Below are positions 14,161-30,277 of a stretch of 33,333 nucleotides of DNA, piece by piece (the first letter of the stretch is position 1; each line of letters starts with the position of its first letter). The stretch is from Gemmatimonadota bacterium (GTDB lineage Bacteria > Gemmatimonadota > Gemmatimonadetes > Gemmatimonadales > Gemmatimonadaceae), in NCBI GenBank assembly GCA_016194585.1, contig JACQBG010000046.1, forward strand, positions 1 to 33,333. The letters are read 5' to 3'. Under the pieces are notes generated by a model. The model had not been told where the DNA came from. It saw nothing but the letters and a program-made list of their open reading frames with translations, and did no database searches. Position numbers and translations under genes: made by a program.

Positions 14161-16623
14161 TCAGCCGTTCGCCGCCACCGCCGAGGGGACGAGCCATCGG
14201 ATCATGGCGACCTTGATGGCGTCGTTCACCACGAGGCAGGCGGCCGCCGAGTAGCCCAGGATCAGGAGCGACTGCCCCCACGGCAACGGCATCAGGTCGC
14301 GAAGGCCCACGAACGTGAAGCCGGTGCCGATGGCGGCGTCGAGGGCGAGGGCCAGAATCAGCGTCCGGCTCGGCATCGTGCGCCAGAACCAGCGCCGCTC
14401 GCGGGCCGACACGATGGAGAAGACGGCGAAGTACAGCATCAACTCGAAGCTGAATGTGTAGAGGGCGCCGTCGTTCGTCGCCAGACCGAAGCGCGTCCAG
14501 GCCAGGTACAGCAACAGCAGCGATTCGGCGACCATCACGACGCCGAGCACGGCGGAGACGGCGATGAACCCGCCGATGTTCCATGTCTCGGGCTTCCGCG
14601 ACGGCTGCACCTCGTCGGTGGCGAGCGCGATCTTGGCGAAGTCGGTCATGAACACGAGCAGCAGCATCGCGAATGCGGAGACGACGAATTTGCCGGTCGC
14701 CACGTAGGCGATGGCCACGAACGCCGCCTTGAGGATCGTCCGGCTGATCTTGTTGATGACCCACGTGAGGATGCGCTGGTAGATCGTGCGCCCCTGCTCG
14801 ACCAGCGCCACGATGTTGGTGAGGCCGGGTTCGGTGAGGACGACGCTCGCCGCGCCCTTCGCGACGTCGGTCGCGCTGCTCACCGCGATCCCGACTTCGG
14901 CGAGCCGCAGCGCCGGCGCGTCGTTCACGCCGTCGCCCGTCATCCCGGTCACGTGTCCCGCGGCCTGCAGGTGCTGCACGACGAGGTACTTGTCCTCCGG
15001 ATAGACCTCGGCGAAGCCATCCGTGCCCGCCAGCAGGTCGACCGCCTCGTTCCCAGCTTGCGACGCCGCGGCCTTGAGATCGCCCACCCGGCGGATGTTC
15101 GGCAGGCCGACGCCGCGCGCGATCTCGCTCGCGACGGCGAGGGCATCGCCGGTGAGCATCTTCACCGGCACGCCGAGGCCGCGGAGCGTCTCGATCAGCT
15201 GTTTGGCGTCGGGGCGCGGCGGGTCGTAGAGCGTCACGAGGCCAAGGAGCGTGAGCGGGCCCGCCTCGGGGCCGCGCGCCACCGCGAGCGTGCGATATCC
15301 CTTCAGCGCCGATTCGCTCACCCGTGCCTCGAGCGCGTCGATCGCCGCCGCATCCTGTCCGCACGCCTCGGCGACCGTGCGCACCGCCCCTTTCACGACG
15401 CGCAGTCGCTGGCCGCCCTGCTCGACGACCGCCTCGGTGCGCCGCGTCTTGGCGTCGAACGGAGCGAAAGACACGGGCGTCGCGGGAGCGGCGCCCGTGA
15501 ATACGTCGCCCGCCTTGGCGGCCGCCAGGAACGCAAGGTCGATCGGATCCTGGTTGGCCTCCTGCGAGGCGAGGGCGCCGGCGAGCAACACGGCGGCGTC
15601 GGTCGCCCCGCCGAGCGGGATCACGCCGGTCACGGCCAGCTGGTTCATGGTGATCGTGCCCGTCTTGTCCACGCACAGCACGTCCATCGTCGCCGCGTCT
15701 TCCGCCGCGCTGAGGCGCGTCACCAGCACGCCGCGCTTGGCGAGCTCCTTCGATCCCACCGCCATGCTCACCGTGAACATCACCGGCAACGCCACCGGCA
15801 CGGCGCTCATCAGCAGCACGAGCATGAGCGGCACCATCTCGAGCAGCGGCGCGCCGCGCACGAGCGAGAGCACGGTCACGATGACGAGCAGCGCGCCGAC
15901 GATGACGAACAGCCAGCGCACGACCTTGGCGACGACCGCTTCGATGTGGAGCTTGGGACGCGCCTCCTGCACGAGCTCGGTCGTCCGGCCGAACAGCGTC
16001 TTCGTCCCGATCGCCGCCACCACGCCGGTGCCTTCGCCGTGCCGCACCACGGAGCCGGAACTCAGCACCTCGTTGGGCCCCTTGTCGACGTCCGCCGACT
16101 CGCCGGTGAGCGCCGACTGGTCGACCGTCAGCGCCCCGGTGAGGAGCGTGACGTCCGCGGGCACGATGTCGCCCGAGCGCACGCGCACGACGTCGCCGGG
16201 AACGAGCTCGCGCGACGGCACGACCTGCCAACTCGCGTCACGCAACACGCGTGCGCTCACCTGCAGCCGGCGCCGCAGCGCCTCCACCACACCGGCCGCG
16301 CGATGCTCCTGCATGAACGCCAGCACGGCGTTGACGACGAGCAGCGCGCCGACGACGACGAGATCGGAATATTTCCCGAGCACGGCGGAGAGCACCATGA
16401 TGAGCTCGAGCATCCACGCCGACAGTCCCCAGAACTTGCCGAGGAACTGCAGGACGGGGTGCCGCTTCGTCTCGACGACTTCGTTGTAGCCGTGCGCCTG
16501 GCGGAGACGTTCGACGTCGTCGTGCGAGAGGCCGGTGGCGGGGTCGGTGGCGGGGTTGGTGGCGGGGTTGGTGGCGGGGTTGGTGGCGGGGTTGGTGGCG
16601 GGGCCGGTCGCGGGAGTTGCCAC
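14161..16623 (-). CDS. Plasma-membrane H+-ATPase (P3A-type P-type ATPase)
   Basis: The 820-aa protein shows all P-type signatures: TGES (173-176) in the actuator domain, PVALP (276-280) in the transmembrane ion path, phosphorylated D319 in DKTGTIT, and MTGDGVNDAPALR in the hinge. There are about ten membrane segments. The compact length and PVALP sequence match the P3A proton-efflux group, known from fungi and plants and also found in bacteria and archaea. The first 30 residues are a Pro-Ala-Thr-Asn repeat, so the true start could be downstream near the GLSHDDVERL segment. The gene stands alone on the minus strand, divergent from the selenoprotein gene. Proton export for pH homeostasis or secondary transport is the expected role. 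Confidence 0.93.
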   Translation of the reverse strand: MATPATGPATNPATNPATNPATNPATDPATGLSHDDVERLRQAHGYNEVVETKRHPVLQFLGKFWGLSAWMLELIMVLSAVLGKYSDLVVVGALLVVNAVLAFMQEHRAAGVVEALRRRLQVSARVLRDASWQVVPSRELVPGDVVRVRSGDIVPADVTLLTGALTVDQSALTGESADVDKGPNEVLSSGSVVRHGEGTGVVAAIGTKTLFGRTTELVQEARPKLHIEAVVAKVVRWLFVIVGALLVIVTVLSLVRGAPLLEMVPLMLVLLMSAVPVALPVMFTVSMAVGSKELAKRGVLVTRLSAAEDAATMDVLCVDKTGTITMNQLAVTGVIPLGGATDAAVLLAGALASQEANQDPIDLAFLAAAKAGDVFTGAAPATPVSFAPFDAKTRRTEAVVEQGGQRLRVVKGAVRTVAEACGQDAAAIDALEARVSESALKGYRTLAVARGPEAGPLTLLGLVTLYDPPRPDAKQLIETLRGLGVPVKMLTGDALAVASEIARGVGLPNIRRVGDLKAAASQAGNEAVDLLAGTDGFAEVYPEDKYLVVQHLQAAGHVTGMTGDGVNDAPALRLAEVGIAVSSATDVAKGAASVVLTEPGLTNIVALVEQGRTIYQRILTWVINKISRTILKAAFVAIAYVATGKFVVSAFAMLLLVFMTDFAKIALATDEVQPSRKPETWNIGGFIAVSAVLGVVMVAESLLLLYLAWTRFGLATNDGALYTFSFELMLYFAVFSIVSARERRWFWRTMPSRTLILALALDAAIGTGFTFVGLRDLMPLPWGQSLLILGYSAAACLVVNDAIKVAMIRWLVPSAVAANG
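16534..16605 (-). repeat. 12-bp tandem repeat encoding P-A-T-N units
   Basis: Six consecutive copies of a 12-bp unit (GGTGGCGGGGTT on the plus strand, with small changes in the first and last copies) plus a degenerate seventh lie inside the 5' end of the H+-ATPase gene. They read in frame as Pro-Ala-Thr-Asn/Asp. Because the unit is a multiple of three, copy-number slippage would change only N-terminal tail length. Confidence 0.9.
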
Positions 16624-16708
16624 GGTGCACGTCCTCAGGTCCTGCGAGTGAGGCGGCGCCGATGCGGCCGTCCGGGAGTGCCGAGCCCCTTGCCACGCCG
16701 CGCCGGAT

Positions 16709-16720
16709 GGGAATATTCCC
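16709..16720. promoter_or_regulatory. Perfect 12-bp palindrome, possible operator
   Basis: GGGAATATTCCC is a perfect palindrome in the 140-bp region between the divergent H+-ATPase and selenoprotein genes, 43 bp before the latter's start. Its AT core stands out in GC-rich surroundings. It could bind a dimeric regulator of either gene; no family is assigned. Confidence 0.35.
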
Positions 16721-16763
16721 TGCGCGTACTCTCGGGTCCCCCCACATGGAGTGTAACGCGCGA

Positions 16764-17360
16764 ATGGAGCCGATGTTCCTGCCGGGCGTCGAGTCGAAGC
16801 CGGATCCCGGCACGCCCTACACCAAGCTCATCCAGCAGATGTCGGCCGCGGGGCAGGAGTACCCGCAGATCTGGCATCTCTTCGCCTTCAAGCCGCACGC
16901 CACCGAGCATCTGGCGCGCTTCACGCAGGAGATCCTGCGTGGGGAGGCGCCGCTCAGCCCCGGGTTCCGCGAGCTCATCGCGGCGCGCACCAGCGCGCGC
17001 AACGACTGCCCGTTCTGAACGAAGTCCCACGCCGCGGTCGCGGCGGAGCTGCTGGGAAGCGAGGAACTGGTGCGCCAGGCGCTCGAGGACATCGACCGCT
17101 CGTCGCTCACGAGCGCCGAGAAGTTGATGCTGCATTTCGTCGACAAGGTGAACCACGACTCGCCGCACATCACCGCGGCCGACATGCAGCCGCTCCACGC
17201 GGCCGGGTGGACCGACGAGCAGATCTGGTACGCCATCACCGCGTGCGCGCTGTTCAACTTCTACAACCGGTGGATCGACGCCACCGGCGTGCATGCGCTC
17301 TCCGACGAGGCGCATCGGGCGGGGGGCAAGCGGAGCGCGGCGACGGGCTACGTGCGGTGA
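16764..17360 (+). CDS. AhpD-like peroxidase, probable selenoprotein with CxxU active site (in-frame TGA at 17016)
   Basis: Read through one in-frame TGA, the frame gives 198 residues of a peroxidase-related AhpD/carboxymuconolactone decarboxylase-like protein. The start (MEPMFLPGVE) has GGAG upstream. The TGA is codon 85 and falls exactly on the second cysteine of the redox motif: C82-P-F-U85-TKS-H89. The AhpD proton-relay spacing is kept: Glu 12 residues before the first Cys (E70) and His 4 after the second position. Family similarity is unbroken on both sides (RELIAARTSARND before; SHAAVAAELLG and CALFNFYNRWIDATG after). A SECIS-like hairpin begins just downstream. Selenocysteine at the peroxidatic position would raise peroxidase activity. 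The alternative, a nonsense mutation, is less likely given the exact position and the hairpin. selA/selB/selC are not in the window. Confidence 0.85.
17019..17057 (+). promoter_or_regulatory. Bacterial SECIS-like element following the TGA codon
   Basis: Directly after the TGA, a perfect 6-bp stem CGCCGC (17030-17035) / GCGGCG (17040-17045) closes a GGUC loop. The loop starts 17 nt after the TGA, the same distance as in E. coli fdhF, whose SECIS loop contains GGUCU; the G-U in the loop contacts SelB there. TCCCA (17025-17029) can pair with TGGGA (17053-17057) as a lower stem with a one-sided bulge. The element lies within the coding sequence, as expected for bacteria. Confidence 0.75.
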
Positions 17361-17397: not shown

Positions 17398-19326
17398 GTG
17401 ACCGGCGACGATCGCGAGCTCGGCCTCGACCGGAACATCACGCGGCGCGACTTCCTCGACGGCGTGGCGATCGCCATCGGCGGCGCCGTCGTCGGTCCGC
17501 ACGCGCTGCATGCGGCCTCGGCGAGGCGCGGCGCCGGCCGCGCGGCGATGCGCGACGGCACCTATCCGCCCGCCCTCACCGGGCTCCGCGGCTCGCACGT
17601 GGGGTCGTTCGAAGCGTTGCACGCCCTGCGGGACGGCACGTTCTGGAAGCACGCCAAGGCGCCGGTCCCGACCCACGAGGAATACGACCTCATCGTCGTG
17701 GGCGCGGGGATCAGCGGGCTCGCCGCGGCGCACTACTTCCGCGCGAACCGCCCCGGCGCGAAGGTGCTGATCCTCGACAACCACGACGATTTCGGCGGCC
17801 ACGCCAAGCGCAACGAGTTCATCTACGCGGGCGAGACGCACATCGGGTACGGCGGCACGCAGTCCATCGACAGTCCGTCGCCGTACAGCCCCGTCGCCAA
17901 GGCGCTCATCGCCGAGCTCGGCATCGACGTCGCCAGCTATGGCAAAGCGCTCGACTCGGCCCTCTACCTGTCGCTCGGGCTCAAGCCGGGTTTCTTCTTC
18001 GACGCCGCCACGTTCGGCGCCGACCGGCTCGTCGTCGGCGACCCGCGGGCCGCCGACCCGGCCGCCCTCGCCGCATCGCCGCTCTCCGCCACGGCGCGGC
18101 ATGACCTCGAGCGACTCACGACGGAGCGGCTCGATCCGTTCCCCGGACTGTCGGTCGCCGTGAAGAAGGCCAAGCTCGCGCGCATGAGCTACGCCGACTT
18201 CCTCACGCACGTGTGGAAAGTCGACCCCGCCGTCGTGCGGCTCTACCGGAAAGTCCCGCATCCATTGTTCGGTGCCGGCATCGACGTCGTCCCCGCGCAG
18301 GACGCATATGGACTCGGCTTGCCGGGGTTCCAGGGGATGGGGCTCGACGACGTGCCCGGCCCGGGGCAGAACTGGGATTCGCGGAAGTCGGAGGAAGCCG
18401 AGTCGTACTACTTCCACTTTCCCGACGGCAACGCGACGATCGCGCGGCTCCTCGTCCGCTCGCTCATCCCCACCGCCATTCCCGGCTCGACGGCCGCCGA
18501 CGTCGTCACAGCACGCGCCGACTACGCCCGGCTCGACGAAGCGGGCTCCGACGTCCGCATCCGCCTCGGCAGCCCGGTGATGCGCGTGCGCCACCTCGGC
18601 GCGCCGGCGAAGGCGAAACGCGTCGAAGTCACGTATCTCCAGAACGGAACGCTCCGCTCGGCCACCGGTGGCGCCGTGGTCCTCGCCTGCTGGCACCAGG
18701 TGATCCCGTACATCTGTCCCGAGCTCCCCACGGCGCAGAAGACGGCGATGACGTTCGAGACGAAGGTGCCGCTCGTCTACACGAACGTGCTCATCCGCGA
18801 CTGGACCGCGTTCCAGCGGCTCGGGGTGCGCAGCGTCGCGACGCCGGGACTCTGGCACGACAGCGTGTCGCTCGACATGCCGGTGAGCGTCGGCTCGTAT
18901 CGCCACCCGCGATCGCCCACGCAGCCCATCGTGCTGCACCTGAACAAGTCGCTCGCCAAGCCCGGGCTTCCCATCCGCATGCAGCATCTCGCGGGGCGCA
19001 CGGAGCTCTACACGACGCCGTTCGACACGATCGAGCGGAATGTCCGTGGCGACCTGCTTCGCGTGCTCGGCGCCGGCGGGTTCGATCCCGCGCGCGACAT
19101 CCTGGGACTCACCGTCAACCGGTGGCCCCACGGCTACGCCTACCAGTACAACTCGCTGTTCGACGACTTCTGGTTCGAGGGAGCCGAGACGCCCTGCGAA
19201 GTGGCGCGCCGGCCGTTCGGCCGGCTCGCCGTCGCGAACGCCGATGCGGGCGCCTACTCCTACACCGACGCGGCCATCGACCACGGCCACCGGGCGGTGC
19301 AGGAGATCCTGCGTCTCGATCCCTGA
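17398..19326 (+). CDS. Tat-exported FAD/NAD(P)-binding oxidoreductase
   Basis: The product is about 642 aa from the GTG at 17398; the open frame upstream gives an Arg-rich non-conserved leader and is rejected. A twin-arginine signal (ITRRDFLDG) precedes a hydrophobic stretch. The Rossmann dinucleotide-binding motif is IVVGAGISGLAAAHYFR near residue 100, followed by the acidic strand end LILDNHDDFGGHAKRNEF. The C-terminal HGYAYQYNSLFDDFWFEG and ANADAGAYSYTDAAIDHGHRAVQEI are typical of the second FAD-contacting part of amine oxidase-like flavoproteins. The overall shape resembles spermidine dehydrogenase-like NAD(P)/FAD proteins, but the substrate is not determined. It starts 37 bp after the selenoprotein gene on the same strand and may be co-transcribed. 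Confidence 0.85.
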   Translation: MTGDDRELGLDRNITRRDFLDGVAIAIGGAVVGPHALHAASARRGAGRAAMRDGTYPPALTGLRGSHVGSFEALHALRDGTFWKHAKAPVPTHEEYDLIVVGAGISGLAAAHYFRANRPGAKVLILDNHDDFGGHAKRNEFIYAGETHIGYGGTQSIDSPSPYSPVAKALIAELGIDVASYGKALDSALYLSLGLKPGFFFDAATFGADRLVVGDPRAADPAALAASPLSATARHDLERLTTERLDPFPGLSVAVKKAKLARMSYADFLTHVWKVDPAVVRLYRKVPHPLFGAGIDVVPAQDAYGLGLPGFQGMGLDDVPGPGQNWDSRKSEEAESYYFHFPDGNATIARLLVRSLIPTAIPGSTAADVVTARADYARLDEAGSDVRIRLGSPVMRVRHLGAPAKAKRVEVTYLQNGTLRSATGGAVVLACWHQVIPYICPELPTAQKTAMTFETKVPLVYTNVLIRDWTAFQRLGVRSVATPGLWHDSVSLDMPVSVGSYRHPRSPTQPIVLHLNKSLAKPGLPIRMQHLAGRTELYTTPFDTIERNVRGDLLRVLGAGGFDPARDILGLTVNRWPHGYAYQYNSLFDDFWFEGAETPCEVARRPFGRLAVANADAGAYSYTDAAIDHGHRAVQEILRLDP

Positions 19327-19378: not shown

Positions 19379-19921
19379 CTACGGCGTCATCGACGCGTAG
19401 CCCTGCGCGTTGAGGACGGCACGCGCGAGCGTCGCCGAGATCGACGTCTTCACGAAGGGGAGCAGCTTGTCGCGCGGCACGTTGCGGTTGACGAGCGCCT
19501 GACCGCACACGATGATCTCGACGCCCGCGCCGTGCAGCGCCTCGAGCAGCGCGATGTTCGGGTTGTCGACCCCGGTCGCCGCCTTGTACGCGTCGTTCTG
19601 CAGCAGCGAACGCGTCGCCGTACCGTGCACGATCATCGCGAGGTGCACGTTCTTGCGCGGGATCCCCGACGTGTCGGCCATCATGAGGAAGTTGGCCGGC
19701 GTGCGGAATCCGTCGGTCACTTCGCCGGGCGTCTTCGGCCCCACGGTGACGTCCCACGCGACCTTGTAGACGAGGTTCTTCGGCGCGACGTGCTCCGGGT
19801 GCGGTATCGGCTTGAACGCGCCCTCCACGCGGAGCAGCGCCTCGCCGGTCTGCGCGGCGGCGGGGGAGATCGCGCACGCGAGGAGCGCGAAGGCGGTCAG
19901 GAGGCGGGAGAAGGTTCGCAT
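19379..19921 (-). CDS. Exported DsrE-family protein
   Basis: The product is about 180 aa from the ATG at 19921, which gives a clean signal peptide (MRTFSRLLTAFALLACA, cleavage near AAAQ); the open frame upstream adds a non-conserved leader. The mature part has the DsrE/DsrF-like alpha/beta fold: LAMIVHGTATRSLL, NIALLEALHGAGVEIIVCGQALV with the conserved Cys after a hydrophobic strand, and VKTSISATLARAVLNAQGY. Cytoplasmic DsrE proteins carry persulfide sulfur on this Cys; the role of exported members is not established. It is last in a minus-strand run with the lipoprotein and zinc-ribbon genes (41-bp and 6-bp gaps). Confidence 0.85.
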   Translation of the reverse strand: MRTFSRLLTAFALLACAISPAAAQTGEALLRVEGAFKPIPHPEHVAPKNLVYKVAWDVTVGPKTPGEVTDGFRTPANFLMMADTSGIPRKNVHLAMIVHGTATRSLLQNDAYKAATGVDNPNIALLEALHGAGVEIIVCGQALVNRNVPRDKLLPFVKTSISATLARAVLNAQGYASMTP

Positions 19922-19961
19922 GGCGGGGGGCTCGTGAAGGGTGAATGTGTGGGACTGCGCG

Positions 19962-20486
19962 TCAATTGCCTTTCTTCGTTCCGACGAAGCGACCGCCGGT
20001 GTATCGATACGTGGTCGTCGAATCGGGATAGTCCACCAGCTCGAACGATCCGGCCGGGCTCCCGGTGGGCCGCGACAGATACACGCCGACCGCATCCGCG
20101 TCGTACAGTGGGATGCGTTCCACGTCCAGCGCCTTCGGCGCCGCGCCGTTCATGATCGCGATCACGCGGAGCGCCGAGTCGCCCGGCGCCGTCCCCTCGA
20201 CGATCGCGTCCAGCGTGCCGTCGCCGTCGAAGTCCGCCACCGTCGCGAAGAGCGGCTGCATCCCTCCCGCGGCCTCGGCCGCGAACTGCGACACGTCGGA
20301 ACGGAACGAGTTGATCTTCACGCTCCGGAACCCGGGCGCGTACGCATCGAGTGCCTGCTGCATGGCGGGCGGCAGGTGGAGCATGAAGCCGATGTTGGCG
20401 AACTCGAGCCGGGGGTCGTCCGGCTTCCGGGCGCAGGCGGAGAGAGCGAGGACGAGCGCGAACGAGCGTATCAGCGTCCCCATCAT
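19962..20486 (-). CDS. Lipoprotein with an FG-GAP/EF-hand-like calcium motif
   Basis: The product is 174 aa. A short signal ends in the lipobox LSAC (lipidated Cys near residue 18). The middle holds ATVADFDGDGTLDAIVEG, an FG-GAP/VCBS-type D-x-D-x-D-G calcium loop, flanked by strands like those of secreted repeat proteins. No catalytic motif is seen. I do not recognise a named family. The start may be the first or second Met. It lies 6 bp after the zinc-ribbon gene and probably belongs to the same transcript. Confidence 0.75.
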   Translation of the reverse strand: MMGTLIRSFALVLALSACARKPDDPRLEFANIGFMLHLPPAMQQALDAYAPGFRSVKINSFRSDVSQFAAEAAGGMQPLFATVADFDGDGTLDAIVEGTAPGDSALRVIAIMNGAAPKALDVERIPLYDADAVGVYLSRPTGSPAGSFELVDYPDSTTTYRYTGGRFVGTKKGN

Positions 20487-25448: not shown

Positions 25449-25997
25449 ATGCAGAAGACTCTGGTCCTCCTCACGTTCGTGGCGAGCACGCTCGCCCCGG
25501 CGACGCAGGCCCTGGCGCAGGACGCCGCGGCCAATACCTACATCGGCGTGAAGACGTGCGCCGGGATCTGCCACAAGTCCGAGAAGCAGGGGAACCAGCT
25601 CGGCATCTGGAGCCAGTCAGGGCATGCCCAGGCGTACGTGACGCTCACGACGGCCAAGGCGAACGACATCGCCAAGGCCAAAGGGCTCGCGACCCCCGCC
25701 GCCGAATCGCCCGAGTGCCTGCAGTGCCATGCGCTGCGCGCCGAGAACGTCGAGATCAAGGACGGCGTGCAGTGCGAGATGTGCCACGGCGCCGGCTCGG
25801 GCTACAAGAGCAACAGCATCATGAAGGACCGCGCGAAGTCGATCGCCGCGGGCATGAAGGAATACAAGGACGACGCGGCCATCGAAGCGCAGTGCCGCAG
25901 CTGTCACAACGAGAAGAGCCCGACGTTCAAGGAATTCAATTTCGCCGAACGATGGGCGAAGATCCGGCACACCGTGCCGAAAACCCCTGAAGGATGA
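25449..25997 (+). CDS. Small periplasmic tetraheme cytochrome c with one CX3CH motif
   Basis: The product is 182 aa from the ATG at 25449, preceded by AAGGAG at 6 bp. A signal peptide (MQKTLVLLTFVASTLAPA) ends near ALAQ. Three canonical heme motifs are seen (CLQCH, CEMCH, CRSCH). The first motif, in YIGVKTCAGICHKSEKQGN, has three residues between the cysteines (C-A-G-I-C-H) instead of two. The surrounding sequence fits the cytochrome c-554-like family of small electron carriers. It is first in the plus-strand operon and ends within a few bases of the next start. It could shuttle electrons between the membrane modules. Confidence 0.9.
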   Translation: MQKTLVLLTFVASTLAPATQALAQDAAANTYIGVKTCAGICHKSEKQGNQLGIWSQSGHAQAYVTLTTAKANDIAKAKGLATPAAESPECLQCHALRAENVEIKDGVQCEMCHGAGSGYKSNSIMKDRAKSIAAGMKEYKDDAAIEAQCRSCHNEKSPTFKEFNFAERWAKIRHTVPKTPEG

Positions 25998-25999
25998 GC

Positions 26000-27361
26000 A
26001 TGCGCGTCGTCGTACTCGCTGTGATCGTGGCAGGCAGCCTGCAGGTGAGCGCGCCGAGCGCCTCGGCCCAGAAAGGACAGGAGAAGGGAACGGTCGCCAG
26101 CGTCAAGGGCGTCCCCGCCGTCGACACCTCGGCGCTGCACCAGTCGGCGCACGCAAAACTCGTCTGCGTCGCGTGTCACACGAGCCTCGACGTCAAGCGC
26201 ACGCCGTATCGCGGCAAGGTCGAGCCCGTCGTCTGCGTCCGGTGCCACACCACGGCGGAGTTCAAGCATCCGTTCCACCCCGAAGTCGCGCAGTCGATCC
26301 GGAGTGGCGTCACGCCGAAGGTCACGTGCAAGGAATGCCACGGCACCCACGACGTCGCCTCGGCGAAGGTGCCCGGGTCGACGTTCAGCGCGAGCCGGCT
26401 CACCGAGTCGTGCGGCAAGTGCCATGAGAAGGTCTCGGCGAGCTACGCCGGATCGGCGCACGAGCAGGCGCTCGTCGCCAACGAGCTCGGCGCGCCGACC
26501 TGCCTCTCCTGCCACCGGCAGACCCTCACCTTCGCCCGCGCCGCGACCGATTCGCTCACGGTGAAGGCGGCGCAGGTGCGCGCCTGCCTCACGTGCCACC
26601 TCGACAGCCCCGACGTGAAGACGCGCGTCGCGACGTCGACGGTGCTCGTCTCGCCCTGGGCGCACAGCGCGCACGGCACGCTGCTCGAGCACGGCAAGGC
26701 CGCGGCCGCCAACTGCGTCGACTGCCACGGCAGCCACGGCATCAGGAAGAAGTCGGAGCCCGGATCGACCGTCGGCAAGGACAGCGTCACCACGATGTGC
26801 GCGCGCTGCCACGTCGCCGCCGGGCAGAAGTTCAACGGGAGCGTGCACGGGGCCGCCCGCACGAGCGCCAAGACCGACTCGATGACCTGCGCCACCTGCC
26901 ACAGCGACCACGCGAAGGCCGGCGAGGCCGACACGCTGACCGGCGCGGCGCGGACCTCCTCGTACGACAAGGTCTGCGCGCGCTGCCACGACCCCGTCGC
27001 GTATTCGGGGACGTACGGCATCTCGAGCGACCGCTTCAAGGACTTCTCGGACAGTTATCACGGCGTCGCGGTGCACGATGGCACCGTTGCGGCGGCGAAC
27101 TGCGCGAGCTGCCATGGCGCCCACGACGTGAAGCCCAAGAAGGACAGCACGTCGAGCGTGAACGTGGCGAACCGCGAAGCGACCTGCGGCAAGTGCCATC
27201 GGAACGCCGTCGCCCGGTTCGACATCGCGCCCGTGCACCTCAAGGTGGGCGAGCGCGTGAGCGCCGCCGCGCGGTCGTGGCTCGCGCCGGTGGGCCTCCT
27301 CCTCGTCGCCGGCGTGGCCGGCGGGATCTTCCTCTTCGGCCGGCGGCGCAAGGTGAGCTGA
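26000..27361 (+). CDS. Twelve-heme periplasmic cytochrome c with C-terminal membrane anchor
   Basis: The product is about 453 aa. The start at 26000 has AAGGA 5 bp upstream; an ATG at 25994 overlaps the preceding stop and is also possible. A signal peptide precedes twelve CXXCH motifs (CVACH, CVRCH, CKECH, CGKCH, CLSCH, CLTCH, CVDCH, CARCH, CATCH, CARCH, CASCH, CGKCH), many followed by an HxxH-type distal histidine (CHGTHD, CHGSHG, CHGAHD). A single C-terminal helix (WLAPVGLLLVAGVAGGIFLF) with a positive RRRK tail anchors it to the inner membrane with the hemes outside. It resembles doubled cytochrome c3/c7-type domains and is expected to conduct electrons over a long periplasmic distance. 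Confidence 0.92.
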   Translation: MRVVVLAVIVAGSLQVSAPSASAQKGQEKGTVASVKGVPAVDTSALHQSAHAKLVCVACHTSLDVKRTPYRGKVEPVVCVRCHTTAEFKHPFHPEVAQSIRSGVTPKVTCKECHGTHDVASAKVPGSTFSASRLTESCGKCHEKVSASYAGSAHEQALVANELGAPTCLSCHRQTLTFARAATDSLTVKAAQVRACLTCHLDSPDVKTRVATSTVLVSPWAHSAHGTLLEHGKAAAANCVDCHGSHGIRKKSEPGSTVGKDSVTTMCARCHVAAGQKFNGSVHGAARTSAKTDSMTCATCHSDHAKAGEADTLTGAARTSSYDKVCARCHDPVAYSGTYGISSDRFKDFSDSYHGVAVHDGTVAAANCASCHGAHDVKPKKDSTSSVNVANREATCGKCHRNAVARFDIAPVHLKVGERVSAAARSWLAPVGLLLVAGVAGGIFLFGRRRKVS

Positions 27362-27433
27362 ACGTCGTACCGAGTCGCCGGAATGGCCTGACTCGGATGT
27401 AGAACAATCGCTGACAAGTTGCCCCCCGGCGGA

Positions 27434-27447
27434 CCGTATTTATACGG
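27434..27447. promoter_or_regulatory. Inverted repeat CCGTAT-TT-ATACGG upstream of the 19-heme gene
   Basis: Perfect 6-bp arms separated by TT lie 40 bp before the start of the 19-heme/cytochrome b gene, in a 126-bp gap after the 12-heme gene. The AT-rich centre contrasts with the surroundings. It may be an operator or part of an internal promoter; no regulator is assigned. Confidence 0.35.
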
Positions 27448-27487
27448 GACGCAAAGTTGGCTTCCGACGGGGGACGGCCACTGTCAT

Positions 27488-30277
27488 ATGAAGACATCGA
27501 AGGTCCTTGCATCCATAGCCTGGCTGGCGCTGCTCTGCTGGCTGCCGTCGGGCGCCGCGGCGCAATCGAACAGCGACTGCCTCACCTGCCACGGCGACAA
27601 GAAGCTCACCGCCAAGCGCGGCGGCTCCACCATCTCGATGTACGTCGACTCCGCGGCGCTCGCCGCGTCGAGGCACGGACCCGCGACCTGCATCGCCTGC
27701 CACACTGACCTCGCGAAGAAGGACTTCCCCCACGAAGGGAAGATCGCGCCGGCCACCTGCGTGCGCTGCCACGCCGAAGAATCACGGCAGCAGGCACGCT
27801 CGCTCCACGGCAAGCCGTCGACCCGCGGCGCGACGGGACCGACCTGCGCCGACTGCCACGGCGGACACGACGTGGTCGGGGTGCACGATCCGCGCTCGCC
27901 CGTGCTCCCCGCGCGCGTCTCCGCGCTCTGCGGTTCGTGCCATACCGCGGGTGAAGGGGTGCACAAGCAACGCGCCGTGCGCGCCGCCGATCCCTCCGCG
28001 AACTACCCGGAGCTGATCCACGGCGCGCTGGCCAGGAAAGGCTCGGTCGCCACGGCGACCTGCGTGTCGTGCCACACCGCACACGACGTGCTCCCGCACG
28101 GCGACGACCGCTCCACGGTCGCGCGCTCGAAGCTGGCCTCGACCTGCATGCAGTGCCACACCAAGCTCGAGGAGGTGCACCGCAAGGTCATCCCCGTCGA
28201 GCGCTGGGCGCAGGGCCCCGCGGCGGTGCCGGCGTGCGTCACCTGCCACGCGCCCCACAAGACGTACGGCGGGAACCCGGCTGACGCGGCCTGCGTGCGC
28301 TGTCACGCGAAGGCCGACATCAAGTCGTCGAAGGACGGCCACTCGCTCACCGTGCAGGGCAAGGCCGTCGCCGGATCGGTGCACGCCAAGCTGTCGTGCG
28401 CGCAATGCCACGCGGCCGTCGACCCGTCGCACGAGAAGGCGACCGGCACCCGCGTGCCGGCCGTGGAATGCTCCACCTGCCACGCCGAAGTGTCGCGGCA
28501 GTACCACCTGAGCACGCACGGCCAGCTCGAGGCGAAGAAGGACAAGAATGGCCCGACCTGCGCCGAGTGCCACGGCACGCATGACATCCTCTCGAAGAAG
28601 AGCCAGGCCTCGCCGACGTACCCGCTCAACGTCCCCAAGCTCTGCGCACGCTGCCACCGCACCGGCGAGAAGGCCGCGGTCCGTTACACCGGCGACCAGA
28701 CCCAGATCGTCGAGCAGTATACCGAGAGCATCCACGGCAAGGGGATCATCAAGAGCGGGCTCATCGCCAGCGCCGTGTGCACGAGCTGCCACACCGCGCA
28801 CAGCGCGCTCCCCTCCGACAGCCTCGCGTCGAGCGTGAGCCGCGCGAACATCCCCGCGACCTGCGGCGCGTGCCACGTCGGCATCCAGGAACTGTTCGAG
28901 CGCAGCGTCCACTCGGCGAAGGTCACCGCCACGACGAAGGACCTGCCGGTGTGCAGCAGCTGTCACAGCGCGCACACCATCAGCCGCACCGACGCGCAGG
29001 GGTTCAAGCTCGTCGTGATGGACCGGTGCGGCAAATGCCACGAGACGATCGCCAAGGAGTACTTCGACTCGTATCACGGCAAGGTCTCGCGGCTCGGCTT
29101 CACGCAGACCGCGCAGTGCTACGACTGCCACGGCTCGCACGACATCCTGCCGGCGCGCGACCCGCGCGCGCATCTCAACAGCGCGAACGTCGTCGCCACC
29201 TGCCAGAAGTGCCATCCCGGCGCCGGTCCGAAATTCGCGAGCTACATCACCCACGCCACGCCGCACGACCGCAAGAAATATCCGTGGCTCTTCTGGGCCT
29301 TCTGGGGGATGACGGCGCTGCTCGTCGGCACCCTCGGCTTCACCGGCGCCCACTCGCTGCTCTGGCTCGGCCACGCGCTGCGCACGAAGGGGAAGGCCGC
29401 CGCGGCGGCCGCCACCGTGGCCGCGGCGCCGCACGTCGCGCCCTCGAAGGCACACGGCAAGGAACTGGAGTTCGAGCGCTTCACGCGGCTGAACCGCGTG
29501 CTGCACATCGTGATGATCATCACCTTCATCGGCTGTGCCGCCACCGGCATGACGCTGAAGTTCTCCAACACCAGTTGGGCATCGGTGCTCGCGCACCTGC
29601 TCGGTGGATTCCAGACCGCCGGCTACATCCACCGGTTGTGCGCGCTGTTCATGATCCTGCTCTTCGTCACGCACCTCGTCGACGTGGTGCGCCGCCGGAA
29701 GGGTCCGTGGATGGACTATCTCCTCGGCGCCAACACGATGGTGCCCACCCTCAAGGACGCGAAGGAGTTCATCGCCACCGTCAAATACTTCCTCGGCCGC
29801 GGCGAACGCCCCAAGTACAGCCGCTGGACGTACTGGGAGAAGTTCGACTACATGGGCGTGTTCTGGGGCATGGTCGTGATCGGCGGCACGGGGCTCGCCC
29901 TCTGGTTCCCCGTGTTCTTCACGAAGTTCCTCCCCGGCTGGGCGCTCAACGTCGCGACGATCATCCACAGCGACGAAGCGCTCCTCGCCACCGGCTTCAT
30001 CTTCACGGTGCACTTCTTCAACACGCACCTGCGTCCCGAGAAGTTCCCGATAGACACGGTCATCTTCACCGGCCGCATGTCGGTGGAGGAGCTGAAGGAA
30101 GACAAGCCCGCCGAGTACGACGCGCTGGTGAAGAGCGGCGAGCTCGAGGAGCACATGGTGGAGCCGTACCAGCCCATCGTGATCCGGACGTTCCGCGCCT
30201 TCGGCTGGACGGCGCTCACGGCCGGCATCCTGATCGTGGTGTGGATCGTGTACGCGATGCTGTTCGCGCGGGGCTGA
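27488..30277 (+). CDS. 19-heme cytochrome c fused to a cytochrome b561-like membrane domain
   Basis: The product is 929 aa from the ATG at 27488 (signal peptide MKTSKVLASIAWLALLCWLP, end near AAAQ); the open frame upstream is not conserved-looking. Nineteen CXXCH motifs fill residues 31-576. Hemes 1-8 (31-254) and 9-16 (269-493) align as two copies of one eight-heme block; hemes 17-19 follow. A helix at about 600-630 crosses the membrane. After an Ala-rich linker, residues 665-850 form a di-heme cytochrome b561/FDH-gamma-type domain with likely heme ligands in NRVLHIVMI (H673), GYIHRLC (H715), FVTHLVDV (H729), IIHSDEA (H827) and VHFFNTHLRPEKFP. A last helix ends the protein. This joins a quinone-site membrane module and a long heme wire in one chain. 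The direction of electron flow is unknown. Confidence 0.92.
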   Translation: MKTSKVLASIAWLALLCWLPSGAAAQSNSDCLTCHGDKKLTAKRGGSTISMYVDSAALAASRHGPATCIACHTDLAKKDFPHEGKIAPATCVRCHAEESRQQARSLHGKPSTRGATGPTCADCHGGHDVVGVHDPRSPVLPARVSALCGSCHTAGEGVHKQRAVRAADPSANYPELIHGALARKGSVATATCVSCHTAHDVLPHGDDRSTVARSKLASTCMQCHTKLEEVHRKVIPVERWAQGPAAVPACVTCHAPHKTYGGNPADAACVRCHAKADIKSSKDGHSLTVQGKAVAGSVHAKLSCAQCHAAVDPSHEKATGTRVPAVECSTCHAEVSRQYHLSTHGQLEAKKDKNGPTCAECHGTHDILSKKSQASPTYPLNVPKLCARCHRTGEKAAVRYTGDQTQIVEQYTESIHGKGIIKSGLIASAVCTSCHTAHSALPSDSLASSVSRANIPATCGACHVGIQELFERSVHSAKVTATTKDLPVCSSCHSAHTISRTDAQGFKLVVMDRCGKCHETIAKEYFDSYHGKVSRLGFTQTAQCYDCHGSHDILPARDPRAHLNSANVVATCQKCHPGAGPKFASYITHATPHDRKKYPWLFWAFWGMTALLVGTLGFTGAHSLLWLGHALRTKGKAAAAAATVAAAPHVAPSKAHGKELEFERFTRLNRVLHIVMIITFIGCAATGMTLKFSNTSWASVLAHLLGGFQTAGYIHRLCALFMILLFVTHLVDVVRRRKGPWMDYLLGANTMVPTLKDAKEFIATVKYFLGRGERPKYSRWTYWEKFDYMGVFWGMVVIGGTGLALWFPVFFTKFLPGWALNVATIIHSDEALLATGFIFTVHFFNTHLRPEKFPIDTVIFTGRMSVEELKEDKPAEYDALVKSGELEEHMVEPYQPIVIRTFRAFGWTALTAGILIVVWIVYAMLFARG

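Follow-up and report, generated by a model that had tools for sequence, protein, structure and literature searches.

AhpD-like selenoproteins with a CxxU motif were described from the Sargasso Sea in 2005, within COG2128 (PMC1088965), and as the families AhpD-like 1 and 2 in the GOS data of 2008 (PMC2398784). A 2026 review lists a further AhpD-like CxxU protein assigned to TIGR01926, MCB9421940.1 (PMC13188914). For the cysteine-containing enzyme of Mycobacterium tuberculosis (MtbAhpD), a proton relay is described that comprises Glu118, Cys130, Cys133 and His137 (PMC3141380). The second of these cysteines, Cys133, is reported to cross-link Cys61 of AhpC, and Cys130 is partly buried; in Burkholderia thailandensis AhpD, by contrast, the first cysteine mattered more (PMC6626918). 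Here we describe a gene that adds to the known class of AhpD-like CxxU selenoproteins, a class that a sequence-only reading of this DNA had already noted as known from marine metagenomes. The window analyzed is the whole 33,333-nt stretch of contig JACQBG010000046.1, from a member of the Gemmatimonadaceae. Within those portions of the open-licence literature that were accessible, no description was found of a Sec-dominated clade in Acidobacteriota and Gemmatimonadota, of Cys orthologs lacking a SECIS element, or of linkage to selA and selB; the accessible main text of PMC13188914 names neither phylum.

An AhpD-family gene with an in-frame TGA

The gene occupies positions 16764..17360 of the forward strand and belongs to the TIGR01926 branch of the AhpD/CMD superfamily. 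It runs from an ATG at 16764 to a terminal TGA at 17358-17360, and its coding frame (16764-17357) specifies 198 residues with a single internal TGA at codon 85 (17016..17018, +). This codon falls within the motif D-C82-P-F-U85-T-K-S-H89, at the position of the second cysteine of the AhpD-type motif, just as the sequence-only reading had it; homologs carry TGA here, or TGC/TGT in orthologs. The partner cysteine C82 (17007..17009, +), E70 twelve residues before it (16971..16973, +) and H89 four residues after U85 (17028..17030, +) had been called conserved, and all three are invariant in an alignment of 45 sequences, Cys paralogs included, as are R69 and the Sec/Cys position 85 itself. The spacing of E70 is that of the MtbAhpD proton relay.

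The frame is intact on both sides of the TGA. In profile searches, the read-through protein scores 97.7 bits against TIGR01926, above the curated cut-off of 81.8, and also matches the Pfam CMD model. The assigned start is shared with 100 of the 104 homologs aligned from residue 1, which likewise have Met there. The closest pairs (L024-L026) show comparable purifying selection on the two sides of the TGA (pN/pS of 0.23-0.51 ahead of it and 0.30-0.39 beyond it), and the downstream half of the gene is conserved as protein. Open reading frame listing under translation table 11 nevertheless reports two pieces in place of one gene (16617-17018 and 17070-17360), the split that had been predicted for gene callers. 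Standard gene calling truncates or splits the gene in the window, and probably its relatives too, so that genome annotations for abundant soil phyla would record fewer such genes than are present. On all the computational tests applied, this AhpD-family gene is almost certainly a selenoprotein gene.

Selenocysteine machinery and SECIS element

All four genes that the sequence-only reading had proposed seeking, selA, selB, selC and selD, were found in the host genome of the window (3.34 Mb, 98% complete). SelA scores 541 bits in a profile search (cut-off 268), SelB 335 bits with its C-terminal part, and SelD 383 bits. A single tRNA-Sec was detected at 77.7 bits against a gathering score of 47, with ARAGORN in agreement (anticodon TCA), and this selC gene lies ~100 bases from selD. 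Across the 179 genomes of the family, a SelA match is present in 26 of the 29 that carry the TGA gene and in 83 of the 150 that do not (p=3e-4, a value that ignores the shared ancestry of these related genomes). Of the three TGA-gene genomes without a SelA match, two encode a tRNA-Sec; the remaining one has a completeness of 72%. Outside the family, SelA was found in 22 of 24 other hosts of the TGA gene, mostly Acidobacteriota.

A SECIS hairpin, CGCCGC-GGUC-GCGGCG (17030..17045, +), begins 12 nt past the UGA; it comprises 6 bp (-10.8 kcal/mol) and overlaps codons 89-94, the last base of the H89 codon being the first base of the stem. Its apical GGUC loop (17036..17039, +) lies 18-21 nt after the UGA, and the outer bases of the loop covary, G-C exchanging with A-U. 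Among 106 distinct TGA genes, loop positions +18/+21 are G-C in 74, A-U in 31 and G-U in one, and stem positions +15/+24 are C-G in 101, U-A in four and G-C in one. Positions +15, +18, +21 and +24 are all third codon positions, placing this covariation at synonymous sites; the element within codons 89-94 shows RNA constraint on synonymous positions. The 24 distinct hairpin sequences have 97% of cells paired and 13 double changes, and the covariation was equalled in none of 500 shuffles and was far lower in slid controls. At least six of the seven pairs form in every one of the 106 TGA genes, versus three to five of seven in 13 Cys orthologs, none of which has the full stem. The hairpin also agrees with the published bSECIS criteria, as set out in PMC13188914. 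Rfam gave no match in the window at gathering thresholds. A 72-nt region folds no more strongly than its shuffles (MFE z=0.10), a measure that is uninformative at its G+C content, and the case for the SECIS element thus rests on covariation.

Exchange of selenocysteine and cysteine among homologs

A first homolog set, gathered from the 179 family genomes and the GTDB contig collection, comprised 110 loci. Codon 85 aligned with TGA in 109 of its 117 matches and with TGC or TGT in the other eight, which are paralogs of 30-38% identity; every subfamily member in this set, whether from Gemmatimonadota, Acidobacteriota or elsewhere, has TGA there. A wider search, covering the order of a Bryobacterales genome, revealed stop-free full-length orthologs. 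Thirteen of these (46-60% identity) were examined, and in each of them codon 85 itself is TGC or TGT. Only TGA, TGC and TGT were thus encountered at this codon, which is, at the level of sequence, the classical signature of Sec/Cys exchange. In a tree, the Cys orthologs occur in several places among and beside the Sec forms, a distribution that needs about four changes of state. The genome with the closest Cys ortholog (G336) has no SelA match, and a second (G544) has weak selA-like matches only. However, selA is kept in 10 of the 12 genomes with a Cys ortholog, so replacement by Cys does not usually track loss of the machinery. Given their 46-60% identity, and together with solved structures of Cys forms, the Sec and Cys orthologs offer a clean system for assessing what Sec contributes to AhpD-fold chemistry.

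Several variations on this pattern were observed. Two Cys-form orthologs from one genome (L151 and L152 of G515) read T-P-F-C, with Thr replacing the first Cys while the cysteine at the Sec position is kept. In some Acidobacteriota, the Sec form is immediately preceded by one to three Cys-form AhpD paralogs arranged in tandem (L116, 2960-4783; L122, 3839-4929; L115, 4456-4953; L131, 2638-3141). Moreover, most AhpD-family matches in the order searched, even those far outside the subfamily, contain one in-frame TGA. Their presence suggests that there may be several further candidate lineages of AhpD-like selenoproteins.

Evolution and the ahpD(U)-selA-selB cluster

In a tree of 111 proteins, the gene in the window groups with its three closest relatives with strong support, and this group is nested among Acidobacteriota sequences. 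Of the Gemmatimonadota sequences, most fall in a distinct 19-member clade, and several of the intervening branches are weakly supported. Gene transfer between the phyla is the simplest reading of this topology, and a probable one. In two Gemmatimonadaceae, a copy of ahpD(U) is immediately followed by selA and selB, and selD and selC are found nearby: Gemmatirosa kalamazoonensis (G072:C4; L145, 1135-6224) and a second genome, G014 (L144, 1458-6650). In G. kalamazoonensis, which carries two copies of the TGA gene, the cluster is part of NZ_CP007130, a replicon of 1.04 Mb, and the genome has no SelA match outside it. As a speculation at long odds, a Sec-dominated AhpD-fold subfamily might have moved between Acidobacteriota and Gemmatimonadota, sometimes with its own selA-selB-selC-selD on a separate replicon, and might be a main reason that these soil bacteria keep selenocysteine; its reaction might then be one to which Cys is poorly suited, e.g. 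dehalogenation, rather than ordinary peroxide removal.

Structure and active site

An AlphaFold2 model, with Sec read as Cys, has a pLDDT of 96.8. By fold and sequence, its best solved matches are the "peroxidase-related" or AhpD-like structures 3c1l, 2pfx, 6k40, 2prr and 2oyo (Foldseek E ~1e-8 to 1e-9), with 3c1l and 2pfx reaching a TM of about 0.8 at E of about 1e-9. Proteins of this TIGR01926-type structural branch are mostly named just "peroxidase-related". M. tuberculosis AhpD (1gu9) matches the model at a Foldseek E=0.1 and a TM of about 0.5, and no sequence match to MtbAhpD was found at E below 1e-3. The AhpD-like identity proposed from sequence therefore stands as regards the active site, where E70, C82, U85 and H89 correspond to Glu118, Cys130, Cys133 and His137 of MtbAhpD, but shifts as regards the nearest relatives, which are TIGR01926 proteins. 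Because the closest structures are of that type and 1gu9 is reached just at E=0.1, AhpD chemistry is something we infer for this protein. A similar qualification attaches to the sequence-only view that the second cysteine of AhpD is the peroxidatic one, which agrees with the cross-link of MtbAhpD Cys133 to AhpC but not with the B. thailandensis enzyme, where the first cysteine mattered more (PMC6626918). Since the second cysteine of MtbAhpD does cross-link AhpC, the more reactive selenol at this position would be chemically sensible.

Proposed function and alternative explanations

We favor, at a probability of roughly 90%, the reading that the gene encodes a selenoprotein with a Cys82/Sec85 redox pair, its UGA being decoded via SelB and the hairpin. 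The computational part of this explanation comprises the gene structure, the Sec machinery, the SECIS element, Sec/Cys exchange, the predicted fold and the conserved catalytic residues. When the ribosome reaches the UGA at codon 85, SelB carrying Sec-tRNA-Sec would bind the hairpin just downstream, and insertion of Sec would yield a 198-residue, all-helical protein of the AhpD fold. U85 would be the likely nucleophile, forming a selenenylsulfide redox pair with Cys82, and E70 and H89 would act as the proton relay. The product is probably a redox enzyme of AhpD/peroxidase-related type, which would most likely reduce hydroperoxides or re-reduce an oxidized partner such as a peroxiredoxin, and would be recycled by a cellular dithiol.

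The division of the gene by table 11 is also what would be expected of a pseudogene, or of two genes separated by an ordinary stop at codon 85. This is most improbable, and we reject it: homologs from several phyla have TGA at this very codon, purifying selection continues past it, the SECIS element covaries, and Cys replaces Sec at exactly this codon. An in-frame TGA could likewise reflect a variant code in which UGA encodes an ordinary amino acid throughout the organism, a prospect we regard as negligible and also reject, since the gene ends at a TGA of its own and a complete Sec system and a conserved SECIS element are present.

Other alternatives accept Sec insertion and differ as to the reaction. 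The protein could be mainly an electron adaptor, as MtbAhpD is for AhpC, with Sec85 attacking an oxidized peroxiredoxin and the protein not itself a peroxidase. The cross-linking of the U85 counterpart to AhpC in M. tuberculosis speaks for such a role, but no ahpC neighbor was identified within the window and the fold is nearer to TIGR01926 proteins than to MtbAhpD, so we consider it possible though doubtful. A selenol/thiol reaction on something other than a peroxide, such as reductive dehalogenation like that of the AhpD-fold debrominase Bmp8, or a CMD-like role in aromatic catabolism, appears unlikely. Bmp8 structures were matched weakly (E about 2e-3), and the Acidobacteriota copies are often near genes that, named by sequence, resemble those for TonB-dependent receptors or MFS transporters; against this, the closer structures are all TIGR01926 "peroxidase-related" proteins, and E70, C82, U85 and H89 fit the AhpD proton relay.

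Genomic context

The neighbors of the selenoprotein gene in the window are not conserved beside its homologs, and genomic context therefore names no substrate, partner or reductant. About 37 nt downstream, a gene at 17398-19326 (+) is predicted to encode an FAD/NAD(P)-binding oxidoreductase whose N-terminus is twin-arginine-like. Given this short gap the two genes may be co-transcribed; homologous loci do not preserve this arrangement. Elsewhere, the window carries a DsrE/DsrF-like protein with a signal-peptide-like segment at 19379-20095 (-), and two adjoining multiheme c-type cytochrome genes at 25994-30277 (+), the second of which includes a cytochrome b561-like region. Tandem GGCGGGGTTGGT-like repeats occupy 16538-16605, at the start of an opposite-strand P-type ATPase reading frame.

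Comparison with known systems

The protein shares with the Sargasso and GOS AhpD-like CxxU proteins membership of the AhpD/CMD family, Sec at the second CxxC position and a bacterial SECIS element. Those proteins derive from marine and non-marine water metagenomes, whereas the subfamily of the window is mostly Sec-containing and comes from genomes of Gemmatimonadota and Acidobacteriota. MCB9421940.1, compared here by its description in the review, has the same NCBIfam model, TIGR01926, and the CxxU motif in common with it. The NF041238 family (AhpD_rel_CFYUT (seleno)protein) is likewise AhpD-related with CxxU, but its model is longer (357 positions), and the protein of the window scores 48.3 bits against it, below the cut-off of 175. 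At the RNA level, the SECIS element of Escherichia coli fdhF is also a hairpin just after the UGA with a GGUC loop, at 19-22 nt as opposed to 18-21 nt here; its stem sequence differs, the hairpin in the window having a 6-bp, GC-only upper stem. Finally, M. tuberculosis AhpD has the same Glu/CxxC/His active-site pattern, E-C-C-H, but is a weak fold match and carries Cys at both motif positions, the second of which is predicted to be Sec in the protein described here.
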